Part shown: piece after piece, positions 6,327 to 31,457 of the stretch | Layout of the letters: every line of letters begins with the position of its first letter | Numbering within the stretch: the first letter of the stretch is position 1 | Assembly: GCA_945888065.1 (NCBI GenBank) | Contig: CAMCZU010000003.1 | Coordinates: 65,560-99,245 of the forward strand | From: Rickettsia typhi | Lineage (GTDB): Bacteria; Pseudomonadota; Alphaproteobacteria; WRAU01; Hepatincolaceae | Direction: 5' to 3' | DNA: 33,686 nt | The notes under the pieces: model-generated | What the model was told of the DNA's origin: nothing | Databases searched by the model: none | What the model saw: only the letters and a program-made list of their open reading frames with translations | Translations under genes and position numbers: made by a program

Positions 6327-6353
6327 TTTTTTTAAATATTATTAGTAAGATAG

Positions 6354-6590
6354 TGGTTAGTTTCTGTTGCAAGGTACTAACCAAACCCCTTAAGCTAAAG
6401 AGCAATTAAGCAGCTAAAGCTAAACCTGCATTGTTATCGTTTGCATTTATTAAGTTTGACTTATATAAGGCGGTCATCCCTACAGAAGCTTTATTTTTCC
6501 TAATTTGTCGAACCTATTTCACCCCCATAAAATATGTTAATAATGGTGGAGGTGTCGGGTTTTGCACCCCGAGTCCAAAGTAGTAATTAT
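6354..6590 (-). ncRNA. ssrA: Transfer-messenger RNA, circularly permuted two-piece form
   Basis: On the minus strand the tRNA-like 3' part comes first: a T-arm-like hairpin TCGGG...CCCGA, then CACCTCC and an encoded ACCA ending at 6544. A 17-nt spacer (6543-6527) follows, then the coding piece starting at 6526 with GGGGGTG and GGTTCGAC, the standard tmRNA 5' signature. GGGGGTG pairs with CACCTCC over 7 bp, forming the acceptor stem across the spacer. The tag frame begins at GCA (6444-6442) and ends at TAA (6408-6406), encoding ANDNNAGLALAA. A terminal 8-bp hairpin lies at 6354-6383. The rest of the 6327-6729 gap holds the promoters and a palindrome. The outer ends of both pieces are approximate. 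Confidence 0.93.
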
Positions 6591-6606
6591 ATAAAGGTTT
6601 ATCTAT

Positions 6607-6632
6607 ATAGTATTAAATAAATTTAATACTAT
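6607..6632. repeat. 12-bp perfect palindrome near the ssrA transcription start
   Basis: ATAGTATTAAAT (6607-6618), two bases, then its exact reverse complement (6621-6632). It covers the predicted ssrA start point and could be an operator, a 5' end element of pre-tmRNA, or a chance product of AT-rich sequence. Confidence 0.5.
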
Positions 6633-6635
6633 TAT

Positions 6636-6664
6636 ACTATAGTAAGATTTTTTATTATGAGCAA
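6636..6664 (-). promoter_or_regulatory. Predicted ssrA promoter
   Basis: Minus strand TTGCTC (6664-6659), 17 nt, TATAGT (6641-6636). A TATAAT also lies at 6636-6631 with less suitable spacing. It sits back to back with the thyX promoter, the two -35 boxes being 7 bp apart. Confidence 0.4.
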
Positions 6665-6671
6665 TATTTTT

Positions 6672-15489: not shown

Positions 15490-16869
15490 ATGTCAAACCA
15501 AAATGTAGTTTTTGAAGAAAATTTTGATTGGGATAGGTTATTATCTGTTATAAAAAATAACATTGATGATTTATCTTTTGATAGTTGGATAAGGCAATTA
15601 AGGTTTCATAAAGTAGAATCTAATATCTTATTTTTGTATGCCCCATCTGTTTTTATTAAAAATTGGGTTATGACAAATTTTAAAGAAGTGTTTATTCAGG
15701 CTTTTGTTGTATGTTATCCGAATATTAAATCTTTAGAAATTAGTGTAGATAGCTTTAATTCAGATCAATTGTTAAATCCTTTAGCAAATGCACAAGAAAT
15801 TTTTAGTGCAAATATAGATGAAGATATAAATATAGCAAATACTTTTGAATTTAAACTTAATCCTGAGTATACATTTGAAAACTTTGTAGTAGATAAGTCT
15901 AATGAATTTGCATATACAGCTGCACATAGAGTAGCTTGTGATAATATAGTTAATTTTAATCCTTTATTTATTTATGGAGGTGTTGGGTTAGGTAAAACTC
16001 ATTTAATGCACTCTATAGCTTGGGAAATTATTAATAAAAAACTCAATCGTAAATTCTTATATCTTACAGCTGAAAAGTTTGCAGTTTTGTATGTGATGGC
16101 ATTAAGAGAAAAAAATATAATGTCTTTTAAAGAAATGTTTAGAAGCACAGATATTTTAATGATTGATGATTTTCAGTTTATTGGTGGCAAAGAGCAAACT
16201 CAAGAAGAATTTTTTCACACATTTAATTCTTTGATTTCTCAAGGTAAACAAATTATTTTAACAGCAGATAAATCTCCTTTAGATTTAGATAAAATAGAAG
16301 CAAGAATAGTATCAAGATTACAAGCAGGACTTCCTGTGAGTATTAATTCAACAACTTATGAATTAAGGCTTGGTATTTTAGAATCTAAAGCAAAAAATCT
16401 TAACATAAAAATTCCAAAAGATGTTTTAGATTTTTTAGCTCATACTATTACATCTAATGTGCGTGAGCTTGAGGGTGCATTAAAGAGAGTTATTTCTTAT
16501 CATAGAATTATGAATGTTAAAATAGATCTTAATATGGCTATGAATGTTTTAGAAGATGTAGTTAAGTTTGTAAACAAAACTATTAGTATTGATTTAATTC
16601 AAAAAAAGGTTGCAGAGCATTATTCTATTAAATTGGCAGATATGTCTTCTATTAAAAAAGATAAAATGACATCTCAAGCAAGGCATATTGCAATGTATTT
16701 AGCCAAAAAACTTACAAAATCATCTCTTCCTGAAATAGGTAAAAAATTTGGTGGTCGTGATCATACAACTGTGATTTATTCTGTAAATAAAATAGAAGAC
16801 AAATTAAAAAATGATATATATTTACAAAGTGATATTAAATTATTAATAAATATTTTACAAAAAAATTAA
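15490..16869 (+). CDS. dnaA: Chromosomal replication initiator protein DnaA
   Basis: AAA+ ATPase that binds DnaA boxes and opens oriC. Domain I covers roughly residues 11-85 (WDRLLSVIKNNID, SWIRQL). A short linker follows, then the AAA+ domain with Walker A GGVGLGKTH (163-171), Walker B ILMIDDFQF and sensor region EARIVSRLQAGL. Domain IV has the DnaA signature GGRDHTTVIYSVNKI. Length 459 aa is standard. No Shine-Dalgarno precedes the ATG 7 nt after rpsT, so translation may be coupled. dnaN, recF and gyrB follow in the classical order. No cluster of DnaA boxes was found in the flanking gaps. Confidence 0.97.
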   Translation: MSNQNVVFEENFDWDRLLSVIKNNIDDLSFDSWIRQLRFHKVESNILFLYAPSVFIKNWVMTNFKEVFIQAFVVCYPNIKSLEISVDSFNSDQLLNPLANAQEIFSANIDEDINIANTFEFKLNPEYTFENFVVDKSNEFAYTAAHRVACDNIVNFNPLFIYGGVGLGKTHLMHSIAWEIINKKLNRKFLYLTAEKFAVLYVMALREKNIMSFKEMFRSTDILMIDDFQFIGGKEQTQEEFFHTFNSLISQGKQIILTADKSPLDLDKIEARIVSRLQAGLPVSINSTTYELRLGILESKAKNLNIKIPKDVLDFLAHTITSNVRELEGALKRVISYHRIMNVKIDLNMAMNVLEDVVKFVNKTISIDLIQKKVAEHYSIKLADMSSIKKDKMTSQARHIAMYLAKKLTKSSLPEIGKKFGGRDHTTVIYSVNKIEDKLKNDIYLQSDIKLLINILQKN

Positions 16870-16920: not shown

Positions 16921-18036
16921 ATGAAATTCACAATTTTAGCTAATGTGCTATTAAAAGCTTTAGATAATGTTCAAGGTGTTGTTGATAAGCGTAATATTAC
17001 TCCAATTTTATCTAACATTAGGATTTCAGCTCAAAATGATAAAATTATTATTAATGCTACAGATATGGATTTAGATATTGTAGAGATTATACAAGTGAAT
17101 GTAAATGAAGTTGGGTCTACAACGGTTTCTGCTTATATGATGTTTGAGGCTATAAAAAGGCTTCCTGGAGATTCTAATGTAGAGTTAGCTATGGTTAATG
17201 ATCAGCTTCATTTAAAATGTGGCACATTTAAAGCAAAATTTAATTGCCTTCCTGTAGAAGATTTTCCTATTATTCAAACCAATGATTTACCTAATAATTT
17301 TGATATTTCTGTGGTAGATTTTAAAAGATTAATAGAAAAAACTAGATTTGCAATATCTTTAGATGAAACTCGTTATTATTTAAATGGTATTTATTTTCAT
17401 TCTACCACAAGCAATGGAAACAATGTGTTAAGAGCTGTTGCTACAGATGGTCATAGATTGGCATTAGCAGACATAAAAACTCAAAGTGATTTTAATATAG
17501 CAGATGGTTTAATTTTACCTAAAAAAGCTGTAGATGAATTATATAAATTACTAGATAAGTTAAATGAAAAGCAATTAAATATTGCTTGTAGTAATACTAA
17601 AATATCTTTTAAATTTGGAGATAAGCTTATTTTAACTTCAAAATTAATTGATGGGAATTTTCCTAATTATCAAAAAGTTATTCCAGAAAACAATGATAAA
17701 ATTTTAGAAGTATCTAAAAAATCTTTTATTGATGCTGTAAATTTAATTTCTGTATTTAGTGATGATAAATTAAAAGCCGTAAAAATAGATATTTTAGATA
17801 AAAAAATTACTCTTACAGCTCATAAAAGTGATAATGAAGGAGAGCAAGAGTTAGATATTTTACACCCAATAGATGCTATGACAATTTGCTTTAATGCAAA
17901 ATATTTAAATGATATTTGTTCATTAATTGTAGGAGATAATTTAGTAATTAAATTAGCTTCATCTTCTACTCCTGCTATTATTAAAAAAATTGATAGTGAT
18001 GAAGAAATATTTGTTATTATGCCTATGAGATTATAA
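16921..18036 (+). CDS. dnaN: DNA polymerase III beta subunit (sliding clamp)
   Basis: Ring-shaped processivity clamp for the replicase. The 371-residue protein starts MKFTILANVLLKALDNVQGVV and shows the three repeated clamp domains, including RNITPILSNI, LNGIYFH, RAVATDGHRLA and the C-terminal VIMPMRL that contributes to the protein-binding pocket. It lies 51 nt after dnaA and 12 nt before recF, in a co-directional run. Confidence 0.97.
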   Translation: MKFTILANVLLKALDNVQGVVDKRNITPILSNIRISAQNDKIIINATDMDLDIVEIIQVNVNEVGSTTVSAYMMFEAIKRLPGDSNVELAMVNDQLHLKCGTFKAKFNCLPVEDFPIIQTNDLPNNFDISVVDFKRLIEKTRFAISLDETRYYLNGIYFHSTTSNGNNVLRAVATDGHRLALADIKTQSDFNIADGLILPKKAVDELYKLLDKLNEKQLNIACSNTKISFKFGDKLILTSKLIDGNFPNYQKVIPENNDKILEVSKKSFIDAVNLISVFSDDKLKAVKIDILDKKITLTAHKSDNEGEQELDILHPIDAMTICFNAKYLNDICSLIVGDNLVIKLASSSTPAIIKKIDSDEEIFVIMPMRL

Positions 18037-18048
18037 AATAGAATACTA

Positions 18049-19158
18049 ATGGATTATAATCAGTATTATTTAAAAAACATTAGTTTGTATAATTTTAGAA
18101 ACCATAAAAAATTTTTTTCTGATTTTTCATCTTCTTGTAATATTATTATTGGAAGCAATGGTTCTGGTAAAACATCTATACTAGAAGCTATATCTTTATT
18201 ATCTGTAGGTAAGGGTTTAAAAAGTGCCGAAGTTAATAATATAATAGGATATGGTGGCATTGAATCTAAAATACATAGCGATTTAAACACATCTTTGGGT
18301 TTAATTAATTTAGGAGTATTTTTAGAATTTGATTCATCTTCAGAAAGTTTTAAAAAAAAATATTTTATAGATGAAAACAAAGTAAAAAATAAAGAATACT
18401 TACTACATAGCCTTGATTGTGTATGGATGATTCCTCAAATGGATAATTTTTTTTTACAAGATTCTAGTGTAAAAAGAAAATTTATTGATAAATTAATTTC
18501 TGTTCTTGATAAAGATCATTTAATTAGGCTAATTGAATATGAAAAACTTTTAAAAGAACGTTCAAAAGTTTTGTTTATGTATTCTCATCATCACAAATGG
18601 TTAGATATTATAGAAGAAAATATTTGTTCTATTGGTGTTGCTTTATCTGTTGCAAGAGCAAATTTTTTAGAGCAATTATCTGAGGAATTGTCTGATAATA
18701 GCATATATAAATATCCAATGAAATTAATGTTTGAAGGAATGTTAGAAGATTTATTTAAAGAGCATAAGTTTTCTTTAGTTGTAGAGGGTTATTATAAAGC
18801 ATCTTTAAAAAATTCTAGAGAGAATGATAAAAAAACAAATACAACTACTATTGGACCGCATAAAAGCAAACTTCAAGGTCATAGCATTAAGCATTCTAGG
18901 TTGGCTACAATGTGCTCTTCTGGAGAGCAAAAAATATTACTAATTGAAATGATTGTATCGTTTATTAATTTAGTATTTAAAATAAAAAAAAGTAAGCCTG
19001 TATTGTTGCTAGATGAAATTAATATTCATTTGGATCAAGAAAATAGCGATTATATTGTCAATTGTTTTTTAAATCTGGGAAATCAAATATTTATTACATC
19101 TGTTGATAATAAATATTTTGTTGATAATAAAAATCAATTTAATTTTATTAAATTATAA
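18049..19158 (+). CDS. recF: DNA replication and repair protein RecF
   Basis: SMC-like ATPase of the RecFOR gap-repair pathway. Walker A is GSNGSGKT (residues 35-42) after the typical NISLYNFRNHK start. The ABC-type signature is CSSGEQK, and Walker B is VLLLDEINIHLD. IGPHKS is also conserved. Length 369 aa is normal. It is co-directional, 12 nt after dnaN and 81 nt before gyrB. Confidence 0.95.
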   Translation: MDYNQYYLKNISLYNFRNHKKFFSDFSSSCNIIIGSNGSGKTSILEAISLLSVGKGLKSAEVNNIIGYGGIESKIHSDLNTSLGLINLGVFLEFDSSSESFKKKYFIDENKVKNKEYLLHSLDCVWMIPQMDNFFLQDSSVKRKFIDKLISVLDKDHLIRLIEYEKLLKERSKVLFMYSHHHKWLDIIEENICSIGVALSVARANFLEQLSEELSDNSIYKYPMKLMFEGMLEDLFKEHKFSLVVEGYYKASLKNSRENDKKTNTTTIGPHKSKLQGHSIKHSRLATMCSSGEQKILLIEMIVSFINLVFKIKKSKPVLLLDEINIHLDQENSDYIVNCFLNLGNQIFITSVDNKYFVDNKNQFNFIKL

Positions 19159-19185: not shown

Positions 19186-21675
<2,490 letters not shown>

Positions 21676-27338: not shown

Positions 27339-28472
27339 ATGGTAGATGATATTGTTAATAATACAGATAAATATTTTTCTTATACTAAGGAAATTGTAAA
27401 AAAATATGGTGATAAAAAAGTAGTATATGCTGTTTTTGTTCGTAAACCAGCTATTTATGCTTGTGAGTTTGCTATTTCTTGGTTAAAATCATTAAATTTA
27501 AAAATTGAGATTGAAGAAAATTTTAAAGAAGGAGAAAGAGTTCAACCAGGAGATCCATTGTTTTTTTTACAAGGTGATTTTTCTTCTTTAGTAGAACTTG
27601 AAACATTGTTATTACAAAAAGTAGGCTTATCTTGTTTGTGTGCTTGGAATGCTTATATGATGGCATCCTCTTTAAAAAATGTATCTTTTATTTCTATGGT
27701 TGCAAGACATTGTGTAAACCCTCAAATGGTAGAATTAGCTGAATATGGTGTATCTGTTGGTTCTAATGTGGCTAAAAAAGAAGGTTCTAAAGCTTTTATA
27801 GGTTCCTCAACAAATAAATGTGCTTATTTGTTTGGCAACAAAGAGGGAATAGGAACAATGCCACATAATTTAATTGGCTATGCTAATTCTACCCTACAAG
27901 CTTCTAAAATGTATTGGGAAACATTTAAACCAAAAACTATGACTATTTTGGTTGATTATTTTGGTAAAGAAGTAAGTGATTCTATTGCAGTATGTGAATA
28001 TTTTAAAGATTTAGCACAGAGCGGTAATTTATATTTAAGAATAGATACTCATGGAGCAAGATATCTAGAAGGACTAGATTACAACAAAGCACACGATGTG
28101 TTAGAAAAATATACCCCACAGGCTTTATTAAAATACAGAGACAAAGAATCTATAGATTATATGTTAGGAATGGGTGTTTCGGTGGCTTCTATTTTTTATT
28201 TTAGAGAAAAAATTAATGAATATGGTTTTAACAATGTCAAAATTGTTGCATCTTCGGGTTTTAATTTAAAAAAATGTGAAATTATGGCTTCTCTTAAAGC
28301 TCCAATTGATGTAATTGGCACAGGTTCTGTTATTCCTCAATTGTGGACTGATACTTATGCAACCGCAGATGTAATTTCTTATGATAATACATTGTCTGTA
28401 AAAGTTGGGCGAGAATATTTGTTAAAAAAATATATATCTAAAAATGGATTGCAACAAAAGGATTATAATTAA
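27339..28472 (+). CDS. pncB: Nicotinate phosphoribosyltransferase family protein
   Basis: Predicted to convert nicotinate plus PRPP to nicotinate mononucleotide. The 377-residue protein fits the archaeal-like branch of the nicotinate/quinolinate phosphoribosyltransferase superfamily: NTDKYFSYTKEIVKKYG at the N-terminus, ELETLLLQKVGLSC, the substrate loop GTMPHNLIGYA, LRIDTHGARYLEG, and the phosphate-binding VASSGFN with DVIGTGS. Gaps of 2 nt to aroF and 0 nt to nadE show tight operon packing. NadE, which completes NAD synthesis after NadD, is the next gene; this supports nicotinate rather than quinolinate as substrate, together with the nicotinamidase-like gene at 9306. Confidence 0.85.
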   Translation: MVDDIVNNTDKYFSYTKEIVKKYGDKKVVYAVFVRKPAIYACEFAISWLKSLNLKIEIEENFKEGERVQPGDPLFFLQGDFSSLVELETLLLQKVGLSCLCAWNAYMMASSLKNVSFISMVARHCVNPQMVELAEYGVSVGSNVAKKEGSKAFIGSSTNKCAYLFGNKEGIGTMPHNLIGYANSTLQASKMYWETFKPKTMTILVDYFGKEVSDSIAVCEYFKDLAQSGNLYLRIDTHGARYLEGLDYNKAHDVLEKYTPQALLKYRDKESIDYMLGMGVSVASIFYFREKINEYGFNNVKIVASSGFNLKKCEIMASLKAPIDVIGTGSVIPQLWTDTYATADVISYDNTLSVKVGREYLLKKYISKNGLQQKDYN

Positions 28473-30119
28473 ATGCAATTATCTATTGTTATATGCCAAA
28501 TGCAATCTATTTTAGGTGATATAGATGCAAATTTTTTAAAAATTAAAAATTTTTATGAAAATAATTTAGATTCCCAACTTGTTGTATATCCAGAGTTTGC
28601 ACTTTGTGGCTATTCCCCTTGTGATGAATTATTTAATTTAGATTTTCAAAATTTAATTAATTTATATATACATAAGCTTGTTGAAATAACACAATCACAA
28701 AAAACTGCTATGCTAGTTGGTAGTCCATACTTTATAGATAATAAAATTTATAATGTAGCACTCTTTATCCAAAATGGAGAGATAAAACAAATTATTTATA
28801 AATCTTGCTTTCCTAATTATGGAGTGTTTAATGAACATCGTTATTTTTCTACCATAAATAATCAATCTAATATAATTGAATTTTTGGGAGTTAAAATAGG
28901 AGTTTTTATATGTGAAGATATGTGGAGAGAAGATTTTGTAGATAAAGTTGTATCTCAAAATCCGCAAATTTTAATTAGTATTAATGCTTCTGTTTTTGAA
29001 TCTAATAAATATAATATTCGTAAAAATTTAGCACAAAATGTGGTAAAAAAAGCTCAAGTTCCATTAATATATTTAAATTGTGTTGGTGCTTTAGATGAAG
29101 TTGTTTTTGATGGTTCTTCGTTTTATATGAATTTAGATTATAAAATTTTATATACTCTTACACACTGCATTGAGGATACATTAAATACAATGTTTCACGT
29201 GAAACATAGGGAAATAATATCTAAAAATCAAAATTCTTATAATTTTGATGAAAATTATCTTAATTATCAAGCAATAATATTATCTTTAAGAAACTTTATA
29301 AGTTTAAATAATTTTAAAGGAGTAATTATAGGGCTATCTGGAGGAATTGATAGTGTTTTAAGTGCAACTTTAGCTACAGATGCCTTGGGATCTCAAAATG
29401 TAATGCTTGTATCTATGCCATCTAAATATACATCAAGCTTAAGCAAACAAATTATTTCAGAATGTATTAATAATTTGCAGGTTAAATTTTTAGAAATCCC
29501 TATAGATGATATTTTAAATACTTATAAAACTAATTTAGCTAATTTAGATTTAACTAAAAATTTTGTTCTAGAAAATTTACAAGCAAGAATTAGGGGAAAT
29601 ATTTTAATGTCTTTATCAAATATTTACTCTAATTTTATGGTCCTTACCACAGGAAATAAATCTGAAATTGCAACAGGATATTCAACCCTTTATGGTGATA
29701 GTTGTGGTGGTTTTAATTTGCTAAAGGATTTATACAAAACACAAATTTTTTCTATATCTAATTATCGTAATGCTAATATTCCACAATCTAGCTTGTTGCA
29801 AAAATTAAATGTTATTCCTCTGCAGGCAATTACAAGGGCTCCCTCTGCTGAGCTAAGAGATAATCAAAAAGATGAAGATTCTCTACTTCCTTATGAAACA
29901 TTAGATAAAATTTTATATCAATTAATAGAAAATAATTCTTCAACAGATGAACTTTATAAAAATTTTAACCAACAAGATGTAAAAAAAGTGTTAAAATTAT
30001 TAAAAAATTCTCATTATAAAAGAATGCAAAGTGCACAAGGAGTAAAATTATCATCTCAATCACTAAATAGTAGAGAATATATCTACCCACTTGCAATAAA
30101 ATATAATGAATTACAATAA
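28473..30119 (+). CDS. nadE: Glutamine-dependent NAD+ synthetase
   Basis: Amidates nicotinate adenine dinucleotide to NAD+, using ammonia channelled from glutamine. The N-terminal nitrilase-type glutaminase domain has the triad Glu41 (VVYPEFALCGY), Lys110 (IYKSCFPNYG) and Cys147 (GVFICEDMW). The C-terminal synthetase domain has the PP-loop GLSGGIDSVLSA (288-299) and TTGNKSEIATGYSTLYGD. At 548 aa it is full length. The ATG directly abuts the pncB stop. The linker between the domains (residues 240-245, MFHVKH) is encoded by a perfect parS palindrome. Confidence 0.96.
   Translation: MQLSIVICQMQSILGDIDANFLKIKNFYENNLDSQLVVYPEFALCGYSPCDELFNLDFQNLINLYIHKLVEITQSQKTAMLVGSPYFIDNKIYNVALFIQNGEIKQIIYKSCFPNYGVFNEHRYFSTINNQSNIIEFLGVKIGVFICEDMWREDFVDKVVSQNPQILISINASVFESNKYNIRKNLAQNVVKKAQVPLIYLNCVGALDEVVFDGSSFYMNLDYKILYTLTHCIEDTLNTMFHVKHREIISKNQNSYNFDENYLNYQAIILSLRNFISLNNFKGVIIGLSGGIDSVLSATLATDALGSQNVMLVSMPSKYTSSLSKQIISECINNLQVKFLEIPIDDILNTYKTNLANLDLTKNFVLENLQARIRGNILMSLSNIYSNFMVLTTGNKSEIATGYSTLYGDSCGGFNLLKDLYKTQIFSISNYRNANIPQSSLLQKLNVIPLQAITRAPSAELRDNQKDEDSLLPYETLDKILYQLIENNSSTDELYKNFNQQDVKKVLKLLKNSHYKRMQSAQGVKLSSQSLNSREYIYPLAIKYNELQ
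29190..29207. promoter_or_regulatory. parS centromere site (ParB-binding palindrome)
   Basis: ATGTTTCACGTGAAACAT is an 18-bp perfect palindrome containing the canonical 16-bp parS TGTTTCACGTGAAACA (29191-29206). It lies in the nadE interdomain linker. A perfect 16-bp match by chance is very unlikely, more so in such AT-rich DNA. It implies a ParABS chromosome-segregation system encoded elsewhere. Confidence 0.9.
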
Positions 30120-30134
30120 AACAGGAATAACAAA

Positions 30135-31457
30135 ATGAATATAAAAGTTAGATTCGCACCAAGCCCAACAGGTTATTTGCACTTAGGTAATATTAGAATG
30201 GCTTCTCTTAATTATTTTTTATCTACAAAATTAGGTGGAGAATTTATTTTAAGAATTGATGATACAGATTTTGGTCGTGTTAAACCAGAATATATACAAG
30301 GAGTAAGAGAAGATTTAAAATGGTTGGGTATTAATTGGGTTCAAGAATTTTCTCAATCTCAAAGATTAGATATTTATACTACTTTTTTACAACAATTAAT
30401 TAATGAAAATAAAGTATATGAATGCTTTGAAAGTGCAGAAGAGCTAGAATACAAAAAAAAATTGCAATTAGCAAAAGGAAAGCCTCCAATTTATGACAGA
30501 GCAATGCTAAATTTAAGTGCAGAGCAAAAACAACAATATCTAAATGAAGGAAGAAAGCCCTATTACAGATTAAAAATGGAACACAGAGACATCAAATGGG
30601 TAGATATGATAAAAGGAGAAATCAGCTTTAGGGGACAAAATATATCAGACCCAGTCCTTGTTAGAGAAGATGGTAGCTTTTTATATATTCTAACCTCTGT
30701 AATAGATGATATAGAAAAAAATATTACTCATATAATAAGAGGAGAAGACCACATAGTAAATACAGCAGTGCAAATTCAAATGTTTGAATATTTAAAAGCA
30801 CCATTACCTAGCTTTGCACACTTGCCACTAATTACAAATAATCAAGGAGAGGGCTTTTCAAAACGAGATGGAGCATTATCTATAAAAAGTTTAAGAACAC
30901 AAGGAATCCAACCTATAGCTTTGCATAACTATTTATTTGGGCTTGGAATGGGAGAACAAAATAAAATTTATGAAAGCATAGATGAAATAGCAAAAGATTT
31001 TGATTTATCTAAATATAATGGATCGGCAGCAAAATTTGATGAAGCTAAATTATTAAAATTAAATTTACATTTTTTACAAAACCTATCTTTTGATGAAATT
31101 AAAAATTTAACAAAAAAGTATCTTAATTTAGATATAGAACAAAATTTTTGGGATTTAATAAAGCTAAATATAGAAAAATTTGAAGATATCCAAAAATGGC
31201 ACAATATTTGTTTTACAGATATTGCTATACAAAAAAATGAGCTAACACAAATAATGTTAAACACAATGCCAAATGAAGATTTTAATGAAAACAGCTGGAG
31301 CAAATGGTTAGAATCTATAAAAGCTAATACAAAATTAGTTGGTAAAGATTTATTTAAAGCAATTCGCCTAAATTTATCATCTATTGACTATGGTCCAGAG
31401 TTAAAACATTTAATTTGTATAATAGGTAAAGATAGGATAAAAAAGCGTTTATCATAA
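30135..31457 (+). CDS. gltX: Glutamate--tRNA ligase
   Basis: Class I aminoacyl-tRNA synthetase. The HIGH-type signature is APSPTGYLHLGNIRMA, and the KMSKS-type loop is GEGFSKRDGALSI. RIDDTDFGRV and IIRGEDHI are also conserved. At 440 aa it is a little shorter than the usual 465-490, mostly at the anticodon-binding C-terminus. The KRDGALSIKSLRTQGI and YLFGLG stretches resemble the GluRS2-type enzymes of Alphaproteobacteria, which often have two copies, one charging tRNA-Gln. Whether a second gltX exists cannot be seen. It follows nadE by 15 nt. The next gene, after 83 nt, is the Panacea-domain gene. Confidence 0.95.
   Translation: MNIKVRFAPSPTGYLHLGNIRMASLNYFLSTKLGGEFILRIDDTDFGRVKPEYIQGVREDLKWLGINWVQEFSQSQRLDIYTTFLQQLINENKVYECFESAEELEYKKKLQLAKGKPPIYDRAMLNLSAEQKQQYLNEGRKPYYRLKMEHRDIKWVDMIKGEISFRGQNISDPVLVREDGSFLYILTSVIDDIEKNITHIIRGEDHIVNTAVQIQMFEYLKAPLPSFAHLPLITNNQGEGFSKRDGALSIKSLRTQGIQPIALHNYLFGLGMGEQNKIYESIDEIAKDFDLSKYNGSAAKFDEAKLLKLNLHFLQNLSFDEIKNLTKKYLNLDIEQNFWDLIKLNIEKFEDIQKWHNICFTDIAIQKNELTQIMLNTMPNEDFNENSWSKWLESIKANTKLVGKDLFKAIRLNLSSIDYGPELKHLICIIGKDRIKKRLS

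Follow-up and report, generated by a model that had tools for sequence, protein, structure and literature searches.

A perfect parS palindrome in the nadE gene of a Hepatincolaceae genome is very probably an accessory chromosomal parS

The coding sequence of nadE in a genome of the Hepatincolaceae (here G000) contains an 18-bp perfect palindrome, ATGTTTCACGTGAAACAT, which encloses the canonical 16-bp parS. Very probably it is a genuine parS of the chromosome, accessory in role and of an already known kind. Taken as a whole, with a probability of about 0.8, the site would be a real chromosomal parS that nucleates ParB, accessory and lineage-specific, and one of a set of seven. The window, that is, the whole stretch of DNA analysed, comprises 33,686 nucleotides of contig C3, and the palindrome occupies its positions 29190-29207, with the 16-bp parS at 29191-29206.

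The palindrome and its host gene

The palindrome lies in frame within nadE, downstream of a dnaA-dnaN-recF-gyrB cluster. The relevant features of the window are as follows.

15490-16869, plus strand: dnaA, replication initiator (TIGR00362, 494.6 bits)
16921-18036, plus strand: dnaN (TIGR00663)
18049-19158, plus strand: recF (TIGR00611)
19240-21675, plus strand: gyrB (NF011501 and TIGR01059)
27339-28472, plus strand: nicotinate phosphoribosyltransferase-like gene directly upstream of nadE (NF005529, E 5.8e-32, below the curated cut-off)
28473-30119, plus strand: nadE, glutamine-dependent NAD+ synthase, host of the parS (NCBIfam NF010588, 553.6 bits; cut-off 479)
NadE residues 7-231: CN_hydrolase domain
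NadE residues 266-519: NAD_synthase domain
29190-29207, no strand: parS palindrome, nadE codons 240-245, M-F-H-V-K-H
30135-31457, plus strand: gltX, directly downstream of nadE (TIGR00464)

The window also holds, at 6352-6668 on the minus strand, a permuted (two-piece) alphaproteobacterial tmRNA gene, which is ordinary for the class.

The sequence-only reading, which had reported a perfect parS within nadE encoding MFHVKH, was confirmed on both counts: the site matched the canonical 16-bp parS, TGTTNCACGTGAAACA, at 16 of 16 positions without a mismatch, and the codons are in frame. It was the sole match in the window even when up to three mismatches were allowed (0.10 expected at that tolerance). 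A scan of the 867,558-base assembly (26 contigs, 85.9% complete) recovered the nadE copy alone and no scattered identical palindromes. Nearly all parS-type sites of the Hepatincolaceae, the nadE site included, carry the flanking A...T, and the 18-bp form is therefore meaningful.

Markov models (orders 0-4) with contigs C2 and C3 as training data predicted 3e-5 to 2e-4 exact copies of the 16-mer per genome. This expectation, of about 5e-5, argues against a chance match without function, as does the finding that the rest of the parS-type sites, too, occur only in the flanks of the origin. The site is not conserved in relatives, as a chance match would not be, and we nevertheless consider such a match extremely improbable. 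Conservation had been left by the sequence-only reading to an alignment of NadE linkers, and it did not emerge: the palindrome was present in 0 of the 42 aligned nadE genes of relatives, and the nadE site is therefore lineage-specific.

NadE is a protein of 548 aa with the PDB relatives 5kha and 4f4h. In the alignment with the 42 relatives, residues 241-264 formed the least conserved internal stretch (7-10% identity), in agreement with the proposal that the site falls where the protein is least constrained. The peptide had further been assigned to a flexible linker between the two domains. This is roughly right as to location, but an AlphaFold2 model (12 sequences, mean pLDDT 72.7) places the peptide just before the linker, which starts at about residue 251. 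The modelled strands span residues 235-242 and 247-250, the low-confidence inter-domain segment lies near 251-259, and residues 240-245 cover the last part of a beta strand and the next turn. In this model, MFHVKH forms a beta-hairpin of variable sequence on the margin of the glutaminase domain, just ahead of the linker, and is probably not a disordered segment. The probability of the codons TTT CAC GTG AAA CAT given the peptide FHVKH was 0.013, a low value because CAC (21%) and GTG (9%) are minority codons in this genome. The parS-matching codon choice is no more than suggestive, because the site was itself found through its sequence.

ParA, ParB and the set of parS-type sites

The genome encodes both partners of a ParABS system, in the usual rsmG-parA-parB arrangement.

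C2:90604-91569, minus strand: parB, 321 aa (TIGR00180, E 3e-56)
C2:91569-92345, minus strand: parA, 258 aa (AAA_31, E 5.9e-64)

ParB contains the ParB_N and HTH_ParB domains, shares 34-44% identity with the ParBs of other alphaproteobacterial families, and keeps the parS-contact residues G170, K171, S172, R173 and N178; its partner ParA ATPase is encoded beside it. A search for perfect arms with a free centre, TGTTTC-NNNN-GAAACA (TGTTTCNNNNGAAACA), returned seven sites in G000, the nadE copy and six more, vs 0.06-0.08 expected, and the reversed control pattern had 0 matches in this genome.

C2:853: parS-type site inside folD
C2:90180: parS-type site, intergenic, within 7 kb of parAB
C2:90286: parS-type site, intergenic, within 7 kb of parAB
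C2:92368: parS-type site, intergenic, within 7 kb of parAB
C2:97303: parS-type site, intergenic, within 7 kb of parAB
C3:38043: parS-type site inside pgi
C3:94750: parS-type site, the nadE copy

All seven lie on C2 and C3, the contigs on either side of the inferred origin; together these two account for 23% of the assembly. With parB and parA both present and six more sites around the origin, the statement that the organism has ParABS segregation holds in the sense that the system is encoded. Of the two findings that the sequence-only reading had named as refuting it, a genome lacking parB and many scattered identical palindromes, neither was made. Within C2:90160-90311, the sites at 90180 and 90286 sit 106 bp apart in two copies of one short repeat, each with an extra half-site after it, AAGAAACA; since both belong to copies of one repeat, these two sites are not independent.

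The canonical centre ACGT was found at the nadE site only, and the other six sites have TTGT (three times), TTAT, ATAT or GTAT. TTGT recurs in unrelated flanks, with a chance probability of about 1e-4 for at least three occurrences, and all 14 half-sites have a pyrimidine at position 7, both tests having been picked after the data were seen. The recurrence suggests that the TTGT centre is selected. With the assembly 86% complete and lacking the origin gap, further canonical sites may exist outside it.

ParB of G000 carries the changes Q162H, G201S and R204K. In a comparison of 51 ParBs (those of 50 alphaproteobacterial genomes including G000, and the Caulobacter structure), all others have G201, and ParB of G000 alone has Ser201. 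Position 201 faces the central parS bases that vary in G000; G201 has been called absolutely conserved in natural ParBs, and position 201 governs recognition of base 6 (PMC7383237). R204K was considered as the cause of the changed centres and rejected, given that G001, G003 and G013 also have K204 yet keep canonical sites. In the relatives G001 and G003 the centre is ACGT throughout, and the canonical form is therefore taken as ancestral; of the nine sites in the relative G002, seven have the asymmetric centre ACAT/ATGT and two have GCAT/ATGC (L099, L100, L102).

Considering these changes, we tentatively propose, at somewhat less than even odds, that the centromere code is drifting in this lineage: a Ser has replaced an otherwise invariant Gly201, the working sites have diverged at those central bases that position 201 faces, with recurrent TGTTTC-TTGT-GAAACA and a pyrimidine always at position 7, and the nadE site keeps the ancestral form. 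Co-evolution of ParB and parS in G000 is a hypothesis that one genome cannot prove. ParB of G000 might prefer non-canonical centres over ACGT. Binding to the canonical nadE site would still be expected despite S201, because S201 is allowed in parS-specific variants (PMC7383237).

The same observations could describe a relic, an ancestral canonical parS left unused or weakly used after ParB and the working sites moved to the TTGT type. Such a history would fit the canonical centre at only one of seven sites, the unusual G201S and the ancestral form kept in G001 and G003. However, if the 18-bp palindrome, with its CAC and GTG codons, were out of use, it should decay fast in an unconstrained protein segment of a 25% GC genome. 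In the mutational scan of Jalal 2020, parS-specific variants that have R173 tolerate S at 201 (PMC7383237), and the lack of any relative with a parS in nadE gives no sign that the site is old. On balance, we consider a relic unlikely.

Position relative to the replication origin

The region had been read as likely origin-proximal, with dnaA, dnaN and gyrB nearby as support, and this was not upheld. GC skew, computed for the two G000 contigs and sampled stretches of G001, had a positive sign throughout C3 when taken in 10-kb bins, and almost all of C2 was negative. Synteny with the closed genome G001 joins the right end of C2 to the left end of C3, and the sign of the G001 skew changes at about 1,015-1,017 kb, beside this junction. 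Skew and synteny therefore separate the nadE site from the origin by about 95 kb and the width of the gap; for dnaA the distance is about 81 kb. The distance of the parS thus amounts to about 95-105 kb, or some 10% of a chromosome of about 1 Mb, which makes the site a borderline member of the origin domain, the gap at the origin being unsequenced; it lies about 100 kb from parAB.

The gene mnmG is expected beside the origin. It is absent from the G000 assembly and lies at 1,023.5-1,025.4 kb in G001; the origin, and mnmG with it, therefore probably falls in the unsequenced gap. The dnaA-dnaN-recF-gyrB cluster was rejected as an origin marker by skew and synteny. Joining the right end of C3 to the right end of C2, which would place nadE near parAB, was contradicted by skew and gene order. 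Seen from the origin, the dnaA-nadE block points the other way in G001 and has therefore been inverted in one of the two lineages.

This placement bears on whether the nadE site might be the main high-affinity centromere, with the imperfect sites near parAB secondary. The strongest binding in P. aeruginosa is to perfect palindromes, and affinity suffers most when the CACGTG core is damaged (PMC4368675), which would favour the nadE copy. Nevertheless, some 95-105 kb separate the nadE copy from the inferred origin, whereas parAB has a cluster of four sites close by; the three TTGT centres in unrelated flanks point to a selected centre of their own, and the missing origin gap could contain further sites. 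We regard a main centromere in nadE as quite improbable, less likely than a relic.

Proposed role and comparison with known systems

With the nadE palindrome taken as an accessory parS, the CTPase ParB would load there and then slide onto neighbouring DNA. The seven parS-type sites, which reach out to about 100 kb on either side of the origin, would form one set, in which the four within 7 kb of parAB would bear most of the centromere function, and the nadE copy would be a lineage-specific site that arose where NadE tolerates MFHVKH. Binding, sliding and the contribution to segregation are what we infer from the genes and sites described above. The distance of about 100 kb from parAB, the lack of conservation and the exceptional status of the canonical centre in this genome weigh against this reading.

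A role as an SMC loading site is not suggested by the gene content. In a profile search for SMC_prok_B (TIGR02168), no protein scored above the cut-off in G000-G003, including the closed G001, and the same profile scored clearly in the class relatives G011 and G052. All four genomes, which belong to one order, have ParAB and parS, and none has a detected SMC_prok_B. The proteins of G000 above the cut-off of PF02463 were RecF (window 18049-19158) and the products of two other short frames, none of SMC length. Because no SMC was detected in the family, the nadE site would probably extend the ParB-bound DNA on which ParA pulls, instead of loading SMC, and ParB in G000 may work with ParA alone.

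A parS inside a gene is ordinary, given that nine of the ten parS sites of P. aeruginosa are intragenic (parS1-3 and parS5-10; PMC4368675) and that Caulobacter has parS within essential or high-fitness-cost genes (PMC5815017); the nadE site is a routine and neat case of a centromere site in a protein-coding gene. In P. aeruginosa, where parS is TGTTCCACGTGGAACA, the strongest sites are near oriC, whereas in G000 the sole known canonical site is the one in nadE, separated from the inferred origin by about 100 kb. G000 resembles Caulobacter crescentus (PMC5815017) in its alphaproteobacterial ParB-parS pair, a near-origin cluster, in-gene sites and one conserved half (GTGAAA). The two differ in that Caulobacter keeps the CACGTG core in its consensus (PMC7022226) and has its five strongest sites within 5 kb, whereas in G000 the core varies and the sites extend over about 200 kb.

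Ser201 has a parallel in the switching of ParB/Noc specificity, in which S201 was permitted in parS-binding laboratory variants (PMC7383237). Unlike the natural ParBs of that study, which reported no natural example of the S201 tolerance seen in its laboratory mutants, ParB of G000 has S201 naturally, and its sites vary at bases 6 and 7. The value of the nadE site lies in being the single canonical reference among centromere sites that have otherwise changed; with it and the S201 ParB, the co-evolution of ParB and parS becomes open to a direct binding test. If the code is indeed drifting, G000 would show ParB/parS specificity at an intermediate stage of its natural evolution, in a family with ParABS and no detected SMC.

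Two further arrangements were observed in G001. Beside parA, eight canonical parS copies spaced about 200-400 bp apart occupy C1:1029839-1031663 (L095:14839-16663), a stretch without ORFs of at least 80 aa. A lone canonical parS at C1:419546-419561 (L097:10001-10016) lies almost opposite the origin, at the skew sign change that marks the inferred terminus; P. aeruginosa likewise has parS opposite oriC, in its case two sites.
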